From a virus, in IMG/VR virus record IMGVR_UViG_3300048672_000572, positions 1-42,563 of that record: 42,563 nt of DNA; one strand, given 5' to 3'. Both the position numbers and the translations under genes were made by a program. The notes below the pieces were generated by a model. It was not told the DNA's origin. It did no database searches and saw only the letters and a list, made by a program, of their open reading frames with translations. Numbering within the stretch: position 1 is the first letter of the stretch; each line of letters begins with the position of its first letter. Below, in pieces: positions 658-42,563 of the stretch.

Positions 658-1548
658 ACAAAGTCGGAAACCTCAAAAGCTGTAGCAGGAGGCAGAAAGG
701 GTCGCGCATCATGTAAGCCATGAGACAAAGACACCGCCGACACGCGTCAATCCTACCGCTTGGGCCTCCGTATGGTTGCTTAGTAGTAGGGCGGTAGGTA
801 GCAGCTAGGGGGAAATAACGCATCGGTATGGTGCGCCCCCTAGCACCATTTAACATTTACCCCTGTTACACACCATAAATTATGTAACAAATTGGGTAAA
901 CAGGATTTAACAAGTTGGGCGTAGATTGTTGGTAGTAAGCAGAAGCAGCAGGGTAGCCCGAAGCACACGTGCAATCTGCCAACTTGCTACCAGCAACTAT
1001 GCGCCCAACAGCACATTAAAAGATTCAGTAAGGATTGCTGGAAGTGAATTCACAGAACCGACAAGTGATAACCGATAAGGTTGTTTCCTAACTTTGGGTT
1101 CACGGTATGTTAGGCAAACCGAAAAGTGACGCTTCTAGCACCCCTTACTGAATAGCCACAAGAACGAAATTAGCAAAACCGTTCATATAGGCGAAAAGAT
1201 GTGAACATTAACAAGATTGTAGACATAGTGCGAGGTCTAGCAAACTGGCACGCGAGAATGCAATTGTGTATCAATAGAAGAACCGAGGGCCTACACACTA
1301 ACGAATATCGGTTGAGAGTTAAGCCTTGCAGGCCTAGCTCTCGCGCCTTGTCTACAATCAATCCAAGTCACGAATAATGCGCTAGAGCAAGCAAAGCAGT
1401 AAAAGCACCATTCAGCATACGGACAGGAATCGCAAGTGATGACGTATGCACCGAAAAGGGTTGGTGTGCAATAGGAGAATCGGGCATCAACTGACTGTAA
1501 CCGACTTGCTCTAGCACTTTATTCGGGACAACTAAACGGAGGCAACCA
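658..1548 (+). ncRNA. Putative large, multi-domain structured RNA region
   Basis: No credible gene occupies these ~890 bases, yet the stretch is filled with nested inverted repeats. Pairings: 752-759 with 791-798 (8 bp); 805-812 with 836-843 (8 bp), with CGCA/TGCG inside; 856-862 with 894-900 and 864-870 with 883-889; 914-921 with 1002-1009 plus 926-939 with 983-996 (14 bp, two G-U); 1023-1033 with 1143-1153 (11 bp) plus 1036-1044 with 1132-1140; 1181-1188 with 1199-1206; 1215-1225 with 1349-1359 (11 bp); 1381-1391 with 1505-1515 (11 bp), with 1415-1421/1443-1449 inside. GGAGGC 688-693 can pair with the loop sequence GCCTCC 764-769, a possible pseudoknot. G-U pairs favour RNA on the plus strand. 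Length and ornateness recall the phage-associated GOLLD and ROOL RNA classes, but I cannot assign a family. Exact ends and promoter are not seen. Confidence 0.7.
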
Positions 1549-3857: not shown

Positions 3858-4357
3858 GTGAACTCTCAGACTGCTGCAAAGCCCCTGTACACGTCAACAC
3901 CGCCGATGAGGGTACAAGCTGCTACGTCTGCAATAAGTGTGGCGTGGTGTGTGGGTTGGGTTCGTGGGTACGAACGAACGAACGCCGCGAACAACTGCTT
4001 ACAGACGAATCAATCCTCAAGGCCGCTGAGGGTATGGCCCAAGACCAAGAGGCAACGACACGAGCTGCTGAGAATATCAGGCACAGCATGAGTAACATAG
4101 ACGACATACTACTCAAAGCATATATTGAGGTATGCGACGAACACTATAACGAGGGCGATTTTGACCAAGATGAAGAAGCGCATGATTGGTTGAAAAAGTC
4201 TGCCACCAAGCAAGCCCTCTACACAGACATGCTGGAACTGATCGGATCAGACGAACCTGAAGACACCGAGTACGAGTACTACAACAAACTGCATGATTAC
4301 AGGAACGGTCTTCGTCAAGAACTTAGAGCAAAGATCAAGGAGTACTACAAGCTATGA
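3854..4357 (+). CDS. Zinc-ribbon protein with duplicated EAHDWLK module, 167 aa
   Basis: AAGGAGCAGCT precedes the ATG. Residues 7-35 hold a zinc-ribbon: C-C-K-A-P-V, then C-Y-V-C-N-K-C-G-V-V-C. Residues ~80-115 repeat the A-Y-I-E-V-C-D...E-G-D-F...E-E-A-H-D-W-L-K module of the gene at 2745. It looks like a fusion of a zinc-ribbon to the shared module plus a helical tail. Role unknown; possibly nucleic-acid or protein binding. Confidence 0.75.
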   Translation: MSELSDCCKAPVHVNTADEGTSCYVCNKCGVVCGLGSWVRTNERREQLLTDESILKAAEGMAQDQEATTRAAENIRHSMSNIDDILLKAYIEVCDEHYNEGDFDQDEEAHDWLKKSATKQALYTDMLELIGSDEPEDTEYEYYNKLHDYRNGLRQELRAKIKEYYKL

Positions 4358-4485
4358 GCAATTTACACGATGAAATATCTATACAACTAGACAAGCGCAA
4401 GCTACAGAAGCTAGTAGATGAGGGTGTTATAACTTGGGACGAGATCACCAGCGCAGAGATAATCGACGAAACGGATGAGCTGTGA
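4354..4485 (+). CDS. Hypothetical mini-protein, 43 aa
   Basis: Its ATG overlaps the preceding TGA, with AAGGAGTACTAC upstream. Highly acidic, with the segment K-L-Q-K-L-V-D-E-G-V-I-T-W-D-E-I, a helical hairpin-like pattern. No family recognised. Confidence 0.6.
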   Translation: MSNLHDEISIQLDKRKLQKLVDEGVITWDEITSAEIIDETDEL

Positions 4486-4970: not shown

Positions 4971-5044
4971 CAAGCCCAAATATAGACGACGGTGCTTCTC
5001 TTTTAGAAAGCTAGCTGTTCAGCCGTCGTCTATATTTGGGCTTG
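4971..5044. repeat. 22-bp perfect inverted repeat with 30-base loop
   Basis: 4971-4992 is the exact reverse complement of 5023-5044. It begins two bases after the rusA stop, and its right arm covers the first three bases of the -35 box at 5042-5047. No T-run follows, so it is not a standard terminator. It could be an operator, a processing hairpin or a cruciform. Confidence 0.9.
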
Positions 5045-5071
5045 ACACATATATGGTGCTTGTGCTACAAT
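5042..5071 (+). promoter_or_regulatory. Promoter with extended -10 (TTGTGCTACAAT type)
   Basis: TTGACA (5042-5047), an 18-base spacer, then TACAAT (5066-5071) preceded by TGC, an extended -10. The element GCTTGTGCTACA recurs at 37345-37356 and 40104-40115, with a variant at 33588-33600. It drives the gene at 5106. Confidence 0.8.
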
Positions 5072-11382: not shown

Positions 11383-13558
11383 TTGACTGTAAATCATACT
11401 GAGAGCTAGAAGCGCCGCCATATGCGGCGTTTGCTCGTTCTACGCCACCAGCAATAATCTGCCTGATCATATTCCATCTAGCAGCTGCCTCTGCCGGATT
11501 ATCAGTAGAACTAGGTATGATAGCGGTGATACGTTTGATGTCAGTATCTGTGAGCACACCCTTCTCACCCAGACTACGGGCAACATTAGACAAGAACCCA
11601 GTTCGGGCATCATTATAAACATTGACCTCATTATTGAGCCCAATCTTTCCAGCACCTTTTGCTATAAGCCCAGGTATACGACCCTGCGCTCCGCCAGATT
11701 GGTCAAATTGCGACTCTAGCGTATCGAGAATGTTCAGCGCTTGCTGGCCAGCATAGTTTGCATCTTGAGCCTTTATGCTCTCTTTGGTCGGCTCTGGGTT
11801 CATGAGTTCGTAAATCATCTTTAAGTTAGCGACATTCTTGCCGCCGGTAGTTTGCATATCACGGGTAACATCTGCCACAAAGTTTTCTTTTGGATATTGT
11901 GATTGTTCTGGCTGCTGATCGCCGTACGTTTCTGGCTGGTATTGTGAGGACATCAGATCCTGTAGATCTGGCGCTTGCTGATCAGTTGGGGCTGTTTGCT
12001 CTGCACTAGTTCCATATGCACCAAGTATTGCCCTTGGAGCTGTCTCGCGTCCGATTATTTTACCTATAGGGGTAGATGCTGCTCTTGATACATTTTCGAC
12101 ACCCCTACCAATTGGCTCGCCCATAACAGATAGCGCTTGCAAACCCTTTGCCCCGAAACCACCAGTATTGTTCCTGAACCTATCAGCCTGACGGCCAACG
12201 GACTCCATAAAGTTCGATGTCAAATGTAGCTCTTTAGCTATCTTTGATGTCTCTGGCATATTATTCAGCCTAACATCTTTCAGCGCCATTCTAAGTGTGT
12301 TATGTAGTTCTTGACGAGCGGCTACAGCATCGCCCCCAAGGGCTTTGTCTGATGTTTTCTTGCCAATGTCTGACAGGATCTGTATGTAATCATTACCAGT
12401 CTTTGCATTAGCCACCTTTGATCGTATCTCATCGAGATATAGCTGATCGCGTTTAGACATACCAACAAGTTCGGCGTTGTCTGCTACTGCTTTGTCTATA
12501 GACTTCAAGGCGCTAGACTTCACATCTGGAGATAGATCAGTGACTGCCTCTTTGCTGCTTCTGTATGCAGAGCCAAGAGCAGCACGGTGCTTGTCGGCAG
12601 TTTCATACATGCTGTTAGCGCTTATTGATTTTGTGCCTTTGAGTATGTTCTTGCTAGCATAGTCGTTGGTTTCTTTAGAAAGCTCACTACCATAGCGACT
12701 AGAACCTAGTTTACTACTGGCGCTAGTATCCCTAGAGCTTGCTCGTAGTTTCTGACCAATTCTGCGCATAATGCCGCCATCTTCTGACGCTGTAGTCAAC
12801 ATTGATTTGTTCGACTTCGCTACAACATCTGATGCTGGCTCCATAATCTGTTCTAGTTTCGGTACTGTTTGCTTGGATACTTTTGTTGCCGTAGAAGTTG
12901 ATACTGGTATTTTAGTACTTGTCTTCTCTGTGGCAATATAGGGAACTTGTGGGTTTCCGGCAGGGCCAGCTGTTCTGAACCTCCCAAGCTTAGCTGTAGT
13001 ACCAGGCTCGCTAGCCTTCGCATAAATATCCTCTACTGTCGATCTTGTTGGATTTATATAGAGACCACGAGATGTTTGCTTCACAGGAGACTTGGTAGCA
13101 CTCATAGTTGCATCTTCTATGAACTTTACGGGTATCTTTTTAGCACCGGACTTAGCAGCCTGTTCGGTTGCCTCTTTAGCAACGACCGTTCCTGCTTTCG
13201 CGATGCCAACGCCTTTTCCTACTCCTAATGGTATGCCACCAAGTGCTGCCTCAGTAGCAAGCTTCTTATATCCAACACCACTCTCACCAGCCAATTTCTG
13301 GCGAATAAACTCACCGATAGCAGATCCACCAGCACCGCCAGCAGCAGCACCTGGTATAGCACCAACGCCGCCAGCAGCAGCACCAGCTATTCCGCCGCCA
13401 ACTCCACCTATAATACCGCCAGCTGTAGGCAGAAGGTTCAGAAGCCAATTAGATTTCTTTTTCTGTTCAACCTGTGGCTGAGGTTGTTGCTGCTTTGGCA
13501 TAAATGCCATAGCAAAATTAGGATCATATTTGTCAGTATCAAACGATAGCCCTGGCAT
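11372..13558 (-). CDS. Putative internal virion / DNA-ejection protein, 728 aa
   Basis: Large late protein with a low-complexity Gly/Ala block at ~42-85, a glycine-zipper (G-G-V-G-G-G-I-A-G-A-A-A-G) that could insert in membranes. It is followed by Lys/Ser/Thr-rich and helical regions. Position at the distal end of the short-tailed structural operon and this architecture fit an ejection or pilot protein that leaves the capsid with the DNA. No peptidase or lysozyme motif is visible. SD GAGAGGTGG precedes the ATG. The function is inferred from layout, not homology. Confidence 0.65.
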   Translation of the reverse strand: MPGLSFDTDKYDPNFAMAFMPKQQQPQPQVEQKKKSNWLLNLLPTAGGIIGGVGGGIAGAAAGGVGAIPGAAAGGAGGSAIGEFIRQKLAGESGVGYKKLATEAALGGIPLGVGKGVGIAKAGTVVAKEATEQAAKSGAKKIPVKFIEDATMSATKSPVKQTSRGLYINPTRSTVEDIYAKASEPGTTAKLGRFRTAGPAGNPQVPYIATEKTSTKIPVSTSTATKVSKQTVPKLEQIMEPASDVVAKSNKSMLTTASEDGGIMRRIGQKLRASSRDTSASSKLGSSRYGSELSKETNDYASKNILKGTKSISANSMYETADKHRAALGSAYRSSKEAVTDLSPDVKSSALKSIDKAVADNAELVGMSKRDQLYLDEIRSKVANAKTGNDYIQILSDIGKKTSDKALGGDAVAARQELHNTLRMALKDVRLNNMPETSKIAKELHLTSNFMESVGRQADRFRNNTGGFGAKGLQALSVMGEPIGRGVENVSRAASTPIGKIIGRETAPRAILGAYGTSAEQTAPTDQQAPDLQDLMSSQYQPETYGDQQPEQSQYPKENFVADVTRDMQTTGGKNVANLKMIYELMNPEPTKESIKAQDANYAGQQALNILDTLESQFDQSGGAQGRIPGLIAKGAGKIGLNNEVNVYNDARTGFLSNVARSLGEKGVLTDTDIKRITAIIPSSTDNPAEAAARWNMIRQIIAGGVERANAAYGGASSSQYDLQSIMQ

Positions 13559-13559
13559 A

Positions 13560-14450
13560 TTATTGCCACCTCTCTAAACCATTACTTGAGCTCATAGACT
13601 GTAATCCTGGATTAGTTATTTTTGGAGCGCTTGAAGCTGCCCCAGTAAATGATTTGCCAGTACCCCATACCAAGGCATTGTATAGACTGCCGTTGCTGCC
13701 TATGCTTCGTGGATCATAGCCATAATCATTACCAACGAATCCAAGAGCTACTTGAGCGCCCTTGTCACCTCTTGACGCCATCTCTTGCAATACGGTTCTA
13801 AATGGTTTACCGGTAGCCTGGGCGTACATAGCAGCGCTAACTGGTTTGCCATTTATAGTGAAATTAAAACCACCGTCTTTGCGCTGCTCGGACATAGCAC
13901 CGCCAGTTGTCTTCGTGCTGTTCTGGTTGAACGACGGGCTAGCGTAGGCTGATGAAAGCGAAGCCTGTCTCTTTGACTCGGCCATTTGAGCCTCCCAACG
14001 GCGCTTGTCTTCATCGGCTTGCTCTTTGGCCGTAAGTGTTCCGTAAATATCTTTTAGTGAGTTGTATTTATCAGAGTCTCCTTGGTATTTAGTCGATGCT
14101 AATGTGTTAGCCTTGTTGTATAGATCGTTATAGTCAGATTGTGCTGTTTCATAAGCACCTGTCTGGGTACGATATAGATCACTCAACGGAGCAGTTTCCA
14201 TAGCCACCAATCGCTGTCGTTGGGCTTCAGTAGCGAGCCCTCCTTGCAACCTACCGGTGACAGACGGGTCTACTCCTCTAATGAGGTTCTCTGTAGAGGT
14301 GGTGAGCTGTTTCAGCTCATTTGCTCGTTTTTGTGCATCGCTAACACCAAGCTCTTGCTGTGCGCCAGAATAAATATCACTCAAGCTCTTTCGATTAGAG
14401 CTAAATTCTTGCATTTGTTTTAGAGCATCTGCCGATGTGGTTGGGTTCAT
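13560..14450 (-). CDS. Structural protein with coiled coil, 296 aa
   Basis: Helical and Gln/Ser-rich in the N-terminal 150 residues (A-L-K-Q-M-Q-E-F, E-L-K-Q-L), then Gly/Asn-rich; it has a F-T-I-N-G-K-P-V-S motif near 200. It lies between small tail proteins and the putative ejection protein, so it may be a second internal or ejection component. It has no SD, but TATAAT sits exactly six bases before the ATG, suggesting a leaderless mRNA. Confidence 0.6.
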   Translation of the reverse strand: MNPTTSADALKQMQEFSSNRKSLSDIYSGAQQELGVSDAQKRANELKQLTTSTENLIRGVDPSVTGRLQGGLATEAQRQRLVAMETAPLSDLYRTQTGAYETAQSDYNDLYNKANTLASTKYQGDSDKYNSLKDIYGTLTAKEQADEDKRRWEAQMAESKRQASLSSAYASPSFNQNSTKTTGGAMSEQRKDGGFNFTINGKPVSAAMYAQATGKPFRTVLQEMASRGDKGAQVALGFVGNDYGYDPRSIGSNGSLYNALVWGTGKSFTGAASSAPKITNPGLQSMSSSNGLERWQ

Positions 14451-39707: not shown

Positions 39708-40092
39708 CGATATATTGATAGCACTCAGAGCGATGCAGGAGAAAGCCTATCTGGCGAAAGATTCGATGAGTGTTGATGACATCGAGAGGGTAGCGCTTGA
39801 ATTGTCAGCTATAAACTTCTCTATAAGCTACTATGCAGTGTTTTACGAGGATCTGAGCAATAAGCTCGAGGCCATGTATAAAAACGAGGTAGCAAAGACT
39901 TTCATGGAAGAAAAGGCCAATAAGAGCACTGACGGAAAAGCAGAGAATACCGCACGTATTACCCACTACGATACAAAGGTTCAATATACAGATGCCTATA
40001 GAGACTTCAAGTCAGCACAATCTTATCATGGCGATGTCAACACTCTGATTGGTGTACTGCGTAGCCGAGCATCAACATTAAAAAAGTCTTGA
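39685..40092 (+). CDS. Helical hypothetical protein, 135 aa
   Basis: SD AAGGAGTAGTAG. All-helical, with I-L-I-A-L-R-A-M-Q-E-K-A-Y-L-A-K and a C-terminal segment D-V-N-T-L-I-G-V-L-R-S-R-A-S-T-L-K-K. Its place after SSB-like and nuclease genes suggests a recombination partner, but no family is certain. Its stop overlaps the -35 of the 40089 promoter. Confidence 0.65.
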   Translation: MKPGKSFDDILIALRAMQEKAYLAKDSMSVDDIERVALELSAINFSISYYAVFYEDLSNKLEAMYKNEVAKTFMEEKANKSTDGKAENTARITHYDTKVQYTDAYRDFKSAQSYHGDVNTLIGVLRSRASTLKKS

Positions 40093-40117
40093 CATTAAAT
40101 CTTGCTTGTGCTACAGT
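40089..40117 (+). promoter_or_regulatory. Promoter, GCTTGTGCTACA family
   Basis: TTGACA (40089-40094) overlaps the previous gene's TGA; 17-base spacer; TACAGT (40112-40117), with TGC before it. Confidence 0.8.
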
Positions 40118-42110: not shown

Positions 42111-42472
42111 TGAACGAGATATTTCAAGGGTTTGATTGGAAGAATGGCAAGTTTGACGATATTCAAAAAGCGTACTTGAAGCAATACGCTCAAGAGAAAA
42201 TTAACGTGTATCTTCAACCCGGCCCAGTCGATGAGAGATTGGCCGAATCTAATATCTCTCAGGCTTATGTGGTAGCAGAACTAAAAGCTCCAACAAAATT
42301 CACGTGGTATGACTCACCAGTACAGTTTATTGATTCGGTCAGGGATTCGGTCAGGGATTCGGTCAGGGATTCGGTCAGGGCTTCGGTCAGGGCTTCGGTC
42401 TGGGATTCGGTCAGGGCTTCGGTCTGGGATTCGGTCTGGGATTCGGTCTGGGATTCGGTCAGGGCTTGGTAG
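42110..42472 (+). CDS. DUF6745-like repeat protein, N-terminal part
   Basis: TGATG overlap with 41766. N-terminal ~75 residues are unique, then 11 tandem four-residue units (D/A-S-V-R/W) from 42332, each 12 bases. Here it ends at TAG 42470-42472. In the left copy this codon is CAG and the frame continues to 657, so the full protein is ~320 aa. The TAG may be a genuine variant truncating the protein, or an assembly/consensus error. Confidence 0.75.
   Translation: MNEIFQGFDWKNGKFDDIQKAYLKQYAQEKINVYLQPGPVDERLAESNISQAYVVAELKAPTKFTWYDSPVQFIDSVRDSVRDSVRDSVRASVRASVWDSVRASVWDSVWDSVWDSVRAW
42332..42465 (+). repeat. 12-base tandem repeat array
   Basis: Eleven units of G(A/C)T-TCG-GTC-(A/T)GG encoding D/A-S-V-R/W, followed by a partial unit. 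The left edge has a differently ordered copy of the same array, so unit order or number varies. Confidence 0.9.
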
Positions 42473-42563
42473 GATTCAGGCTATGCGCAGTTTCTACAGT
42501 TCTTCAACGACAACCAGCAGGACAATGATTTCCAGCATGTGTGTAGGTTCGAGGAGATGGTAC
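42419..42563. repeat. Terminal redundancy, right copy
   Basis: Matches bases 1-145: exact from 42471, with variation upstream (T42470 for C52 and repeat-unit differences). Confidence 0.85.

Follow-up and report, generated by a model that had tools for sequence, protein, structure and literature searches.

A phage genomic region of about 870 bases with a row of helical domains, which appears to be a large viral RNA of a new kind

Positions 658-1530 of the window, or at least ~900-1530, are best explained as a large non-coding RNA built as a row of domains, which would be transcribed within an operon and would probably act in trans, as a scaffold or a self-assembling particle; this explanation is held with about even confidence. 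The window is the whole stretch of viral DNA that was analysed (42,563 nucleotides; IMG/VR record IMGVR_UViG_3300048672_000572). Judged from its sequence, the element (~600-870 bases) looks like a new class of large viral RNA. Three grounds are established: the region is extremely foldable, it is non-coding, and one of its domains (D1) recurs in two other phages, with compensatory changes, inside non-coding regions that are ornate as well. The D1-bearing regions always lie upstream of unrelated genes. Against this explanation, no more than three independent sequences have D1 in common, and D1 is all that they share.

Phage genome and probable host

The window represents a nearly complete genome of a phage, of ~42.4 kb. 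Positions 1-145 are duplicated at 42419-42563 (97% identity), the genome being therefore circular or circularly permuted; the contig is broken inside the repeats of a DUF6745 gene. The window looks circular although it is classed with linear records, and several relatives are broken at the same DUF6745 gene. The genes aboard include those for terminase, portal, capsid, exonuclease, endolysin and GroEL. The capsid protein is 62% identical to that of TM7 phage DolZOral124_53_65, which is also, by identity, the closest named phage relative for GroEL (36%). The host is probably a Saccharibacterium (TM7), because capsid and GroEL are both nearest to those of a TM7 phage. Relatives picked via DUF6745 and terminase were mostly phages whose other genes are unrelated. 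No tRNA gene was found by ARAGORN in the whole window, and there is no tRNA island.

Features of the element and of its surroundings

The features are given in order of position. Promoter-like sites and the inverted repeat are motifs only.

1-657, + strand: upstream gene, DUF6745 protein with SVRDSV repeats, cut by the contig start.
658-912, + strand: 5' part, predicted fold with hairpins 744-806 (CCUACCGC/GCGGUAGG), 808-846 and 856-898.
914-1009, + strand: domain D1, 10-bp closing helix and 13-bp inner helix (UGGUAGUAAGCAG/CUUGCUACCA).
1023-1153, + strand: domain D2, 11-bp closing helix, multi-branch inside, motifs ACCGACAAGUGAUAACC and ACCGAAAAG.
1154-1212, + strand: linker, weak hairpin and one CGAAAAG.
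1215-1359, + strand: domain D3, perfect 11-bp closing helix GAUUGUAGACA/UGUCUACAAUC.
1381-1515, + strand: domain D4, 11-12-bp closing helix GCUAGAGCAAG/CUUGCUCUAGC.
1528-1548, + strand: leader and ribosome-binding site (RBS) of the next gene, ACUAAACGGAGG, read from the sequence.
1549-1803, + strand: gene that follows the element, encoding 84 aa; it fits no known family, and no relative was found.
4973-5043, + strand: near-perfect inverted repeat of 20 bp, abutting a promoter-like site.
5042-5071: promoter-like site, TTGACA-18-TACAAT with a TGTGC extension.
40089-40117, + strand: nearest upstream promoter-like site, TTGACA-17-TACAGT with a TGTGC extension.

The 5' part (658-~850) is possibly a portion of the same RNA as D1-D4. 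It holds a candidate pseudoknot, GGAGGC at 689-694 being complementary to GCCUCC at 765-770 (~688-694/764-770); this pairing is absent from the MFE structure. UUUAACAA stands before D1 and likewise in G026 (L099), one of the phages that share D1. The inside of D3 offers alternative pairings (CGCGAGA/UCUCGCG and AACCGA/UCGGUU). Comparison of D1-D4 among themselves revealed no robust internal repeat.

Four promoter-like sites of one type (TTGACA or TTGCAN, a spacer of 17-18, TGTGCTACANT or a close variant) were found at ~33.6, 37.3, 40.1 and 5.06 kb. Neither a promoter just before the element nor a terminator just after it was recognised. The inverted repeat at 4973-5043, just ahead of the promoter-like site 5042-5071, is a candidate operator or terminator, and the operon likely ends there.

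Coding potential and folding

The initial annotation had described the region as devoid of a credible gene and rich in long stems, and both descriptions hold. The + strand of 658-1548 has no ORF of at least 60 aa; the ORFs of that size are antisense only (566-856 and 1170-1361) and both cross the stems. The MFE of the + strand (891 nt) is -317.2 kcal/mol, z -6.8 relative to dinucleotide shuffles, and the - strand folds more weakly (z -5.2). In a scan of the whole window (300 bases, + strand), 901-1200 has the lowest z (-9.3) and 751-1050 the second-lowest (-5.5). The local fold of D2 reaches z -7.9.

Contiguous stems of Watson-Crick and G-U pairs exceed those of the shuffled-sequence controls 4-14-fold: 15 of at least 9 bp (shuffled mean 3.1, maximum 6), 7 of at least 10 bp (mean 1.05, maximum 4) and 5 of at least 11 bp (mean 0.35, maximum 2). 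The four closing helices listed at 914-1009, 1023-1153, 1215-1359 and 1381-1515 are present, as are the 14-bp helix 926-939/983-996 with its two G-U pairs, the three copies of CGAAAAG (1120, 1192, 1452) and the six of ACCGA.

The G-U pairs had also been taken to indicate an RNA rather than a DNA function. Within the window this argument fails, since the long stems do not favour G-U over C-A (9 and 12, respectively); what stands of the claim rests on the homologues.

Search for relatives of the element

Comparison of the region with phages and plasmids (blastn) gave nothing real, and DNA searches of whole records among 42 related ones gave matches of chance size only. No detectable copy is present in the close relatives DolZOral, G012 and G013. 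For G013, a loose Smith-Waterman alignment of the whole RNA scored high relative to shuffles, but not relative to window controls, and was rejected. A divergent intergenic region of DolZOral (L053 13920-14254) has a strong fold on either strand (z about -8); it probably holds operators, not an RNA.

The ORF-free regions of 24 capsid relatives were scanned for strand-biased structure, and several of these phages have ornate non-coding regions. The copies in G026 (L099) and G027 (L107) are identical (region L099 minus ~4620-4105, z -7.0). A covariance model built from the window's D1 only (914-1009; structure, the window's own MFE) matches their domain with 29.4 bits (E 0.003 in 0.95 Mb, both strands; E-values of this search are rough). 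Its other matches in these 0.95 Mb are only the window's D1 and its antisense. The model is blind to the strand, because a long hairpin approximates its own reverse complement: it gives its own antisense 29.7 bits, equal to the homologues, whose best match lies on the opposite strand. In whole-RNA Smith-Waterman alignments, G026 stood above all 268 controls in one scoring scheme and not in stricter ones, and its likeness was accepted only after the match of the D1 model.

A wider genome scan with a covariance model missed the known positive G027, so its empty results were discounted. A pattern for the 3' arm of D1, CTTGYTAYCAGCAN{2,3}ATRCRC, was run over all viral contigs. It picked up G026/G027, four distinct coding sequences, one of which occurs in two contigs, and a single further non-coding site, in G043 (L137, minus strand), a phage of 44.8 kb. 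The 5' arm, which is absent from the search pattern, is nevertheless found there: TGGTAGTAAG is identical to that of the window, and the arm TGGTAGTAAGTAG lies at the right distance from the 3' arm. The chance of 10 identical arm bases within ~120 bases is about 1/10,000. The G043 region folds with z -4.9, and the D1 model of the window also matches it (E 6e-4, smaller search). For the window's capsid, G043 has no detected relative.

Covariance models of D2 and D4 found no significant match elsewhere. In G043, no other domain stands between D1 and the gene; in the window and in G026, D1 comes early. Because D2 and D4 lack matches and the order of domains differs, D1 is best seen, on these sequences, as a module shared by RNAs in which the other parts diverge rapidly or are exchanged.

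Covariation and strand of D1

The D1 alignment includes three independent sequences (window, G026, G043). MAFFT mis-registered the 5' arm, so pairs were not counted on automatic alignments but after the arms had been put in register by hand, a procedure that leans towards structure. In this register, all 19 helix pairs are intact (57 of 57 cells across the three phages). Five pairs show two-sided compensatory changes and three show one-sided changes. Five two-sided pairs were reached in 3 of 500 shuffles, and slid registers pair at 26-43%. The check on homologues called for in the initial annotation has thus yielded compensatory changes, within three sequences.

Six cells are not Watson-Crick pairs; in the gene-sense direction each of them reads G-U and none C-A, and on the other strand they would be A-C. 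Because all six wobble in one direction, the homologues support a D1 that acts as RNA from the + strand of the window. D1 lies inside larger ornate non-coding regions in all three phages (z -6.8 in the window, -7.0 in G026, -4.9 in G043), and sequence is conserved within its helix (UGGUARYAAG/CUUGYUAYCA).

Other RNA-like elements in phages

Several further elements were met during the searches. Family A, a separate phage RNA-like element of ~270 nt, is found in L042 (minus 600-950), L098 (minus 13470-13800) and L130 (plus 4130-4430), i.e. in three phages, one of which is an IMG genome-derived viral contig; mean column identity is 71%. It carries the motif CCUAAGUAGUAGGGAGA and the invariant strings GAGCAUUG and GAACUAYU. 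Comparison with Rfam gave no notable match for L121 and L130, L042 having been searched at the gathering score only. By its sequence, family A looks like an undescribed RNA family. Its motif occurs in the window only as GCUUAGUAGUAGGGCGG at 779-795, and loose alignments to the window gave nothing robust; AGUAGUAGGG is suggestive of a link between family A and the window element.

A second element (AGCGCU..CAGGCA..CCUGG..GCGGUG) is found in L104 (9200-9660), L102 (minus 12453-12698) and L048 (minus 13388-13458). A leader, UAUGCAAAUACUUUUAYA, is common to this element in L104 and L102 and to family A in L098. In L104, CAGCCUACCAA/UUGGUAGGCUG form the closing helix of the element, and after it comes a hairpin with a U run that resembles an intrinsic terminator; this copy therefore has the look of an RNA gene of its own.

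In the G026 RNA, the big domain (L099 minus ~4385-4110) is closed by UGAGUAUGUGAG/CUCACAUACUCA and starts with GUGGCGGAAUAGAUAGACGC. The latter is the D-arm string of a class II (Leu-like) tRNA; G026 has only such a string. Positions 1065-1176 of L144 (Lactiplantibacillus phage Gut-P1, ON117106, ~78753-78864) hold a tRNA-like element that lies in a tRNA island and is not annotated; Leu-type acceptor, D-arm and T-arm strings flank its odd middle, and it was passed over by ARAGORN and by the Rfam tRNA model.

Interpretation

In the explanation put forward here, the transcript would start at ~40.1 kb, cross the contig joint and end at the inverted repeat 4973-5043, the element being transcribed rightwards within a polycistronic phage operon. 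A free RNA would need processing, because no promoter or terminator adjoins the element; it would be cut out of the operon transcript. The folded RNA would then probably act in trans, in a structural role: as a scaffold or, by analogy with GOLLD and ROOL, as a self-assembling RNA particle.

The element could instead be a long cis-acting 5' leader of the gene at 1549 and its operon, which would hide or expose the RBS or arrest transcription. A good RBS and a start codon follow ~20 nt beyond its end, and in G026 and G043 the element also directly precedes a gene. The three phages however have unrelated genes behind it (84-aa orphan, HNH-type protein, 55-aa orphan), and this is why a trans-acting RNA is favoured over a gene-specific leader. 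Furthermore, the leader ACUAAACGGAGG that carries the RBS lies outside the folded domains and occurs again ahead of another gene (at 2046), and 650-870 nt of domains far exceed the needs of known leaders. A leader function is thus considered unlikely. Another reading is that the inverted repeats function at the DNA level, as a replication origin, a cruciform or protein-binding sites: the equal frequency of G-U and C-A in the long stems of the window and the good fold of the minus strand would fit this, but the one-directional wobble of the six D1 cells would not, and the arms are 30-110 nt apart with structured insides, no iteron-like array having been noticed. A role as DNA is rather improbable.

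RNA sponges and anti-defence decoys do occur in phages, and the long imperfect duplexes of an early-type operon might serve as such; the helix sequence of D1 is however conserved beyond what a generic decoy needs, and this function appears very improbable. A divergent GOLLD, ROOL or other known large RNA, missed by current models, would account for the similar phage context, length and domain-by-domain layout, and GOLLD, which often runs to >800 nt, is poorly conserved in its 5' region (PMC12286853). Such membership is nonetheless distinctly doubtful: besides a chance miRNA, no model matches at E 10 (window) or E 3 (two homologues), and the window has no tRNA island.

The large trans-acting RNA proposed above may belong to a wider set. 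Speculatively, and with little confidence, D1 would mark a modular, fast-diverging class of RNAs in phages of Saccharibacteria and of unplaced hosts, which would form RNA-only particles of a third architecture. The D1 module (CUUGYUAYCAGCA with UGGUARYAAGYAG) provides a handle for finding members and for covariation tests.

Comparison with known large RNAs

The initial annotation had proposed a member of GOLLD or ROOL or a new class; membership is not borne out by Rfam, and a new class is preferred. At the gathering score, cmscan of the window region against Rfam gave no match, GOLLD, ROOL and intron models included. At E<=10 with lax filters, it gave only one chance miRNA match (E 5), GOLLD and ROOL being absent; the two D1-bearing homologues at E 3 gave nothing beyond one chance miRNA match. 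The literature searched (which included few subscription papers and preprints) gave no description of such RNAs in phages of Saccharibacteria.

Group I and II introns are also large folded RNAs and occur in phages too, but no Rfam intron model matches and the 3' end of the upstream gene is intact: the C-terminus of the DUF6745 protein is like those of its relatives (YLLMVEA / YLLAVEY), and therefore no exon is interrupted. OLE and raiA are, similarly, bacterial RNAs that are large and structured and whose function is poorly known; unlike the window element, to which their Rfam models have no match, they are not phage operon RNAs.

GOLLD is frequently, although not universally, near phage tRNAs or holds them. 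To our knowledge, the purpose of GOLLD and ROOL, large phage RNAs that assemble without protein, is known to nobody. GOLLD is phage-encoded and ornate, often >800 nt, with a variable or poorly conserved 5' region and an unknown function (PMC12286853). The window element resembles it in size, in its ornate fold, in its location in a phage and in its variable 5' part. It differs by the absence of an Rfam match (E<=10), by a phage without a tRNA island and by its conserved piece, which is a single hairpin domain (D1) and not a 3' half. ROOL is a large ornate RNA of phages and prophages with several helical domains, forming an RNA-only octameric cage; both GOLLD and ROOL assemble into RNA-only cages (PMC12286853). 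The window element, judged from its sequence, is likewise a large ornate phage RNA-like element with several helical domains, but it has no Rfam match and differs from ROOL in length and in domain order.

The best reading, by analogy, is that the element works like GOLLD and ROOL yet belongs to neither. A separate class, which has no sequence kinship with them and is carried by small genomes (~42 kb) of phages whose hosts are probably very reduced, would broaden the phenomenon and provide an independent test case for it.
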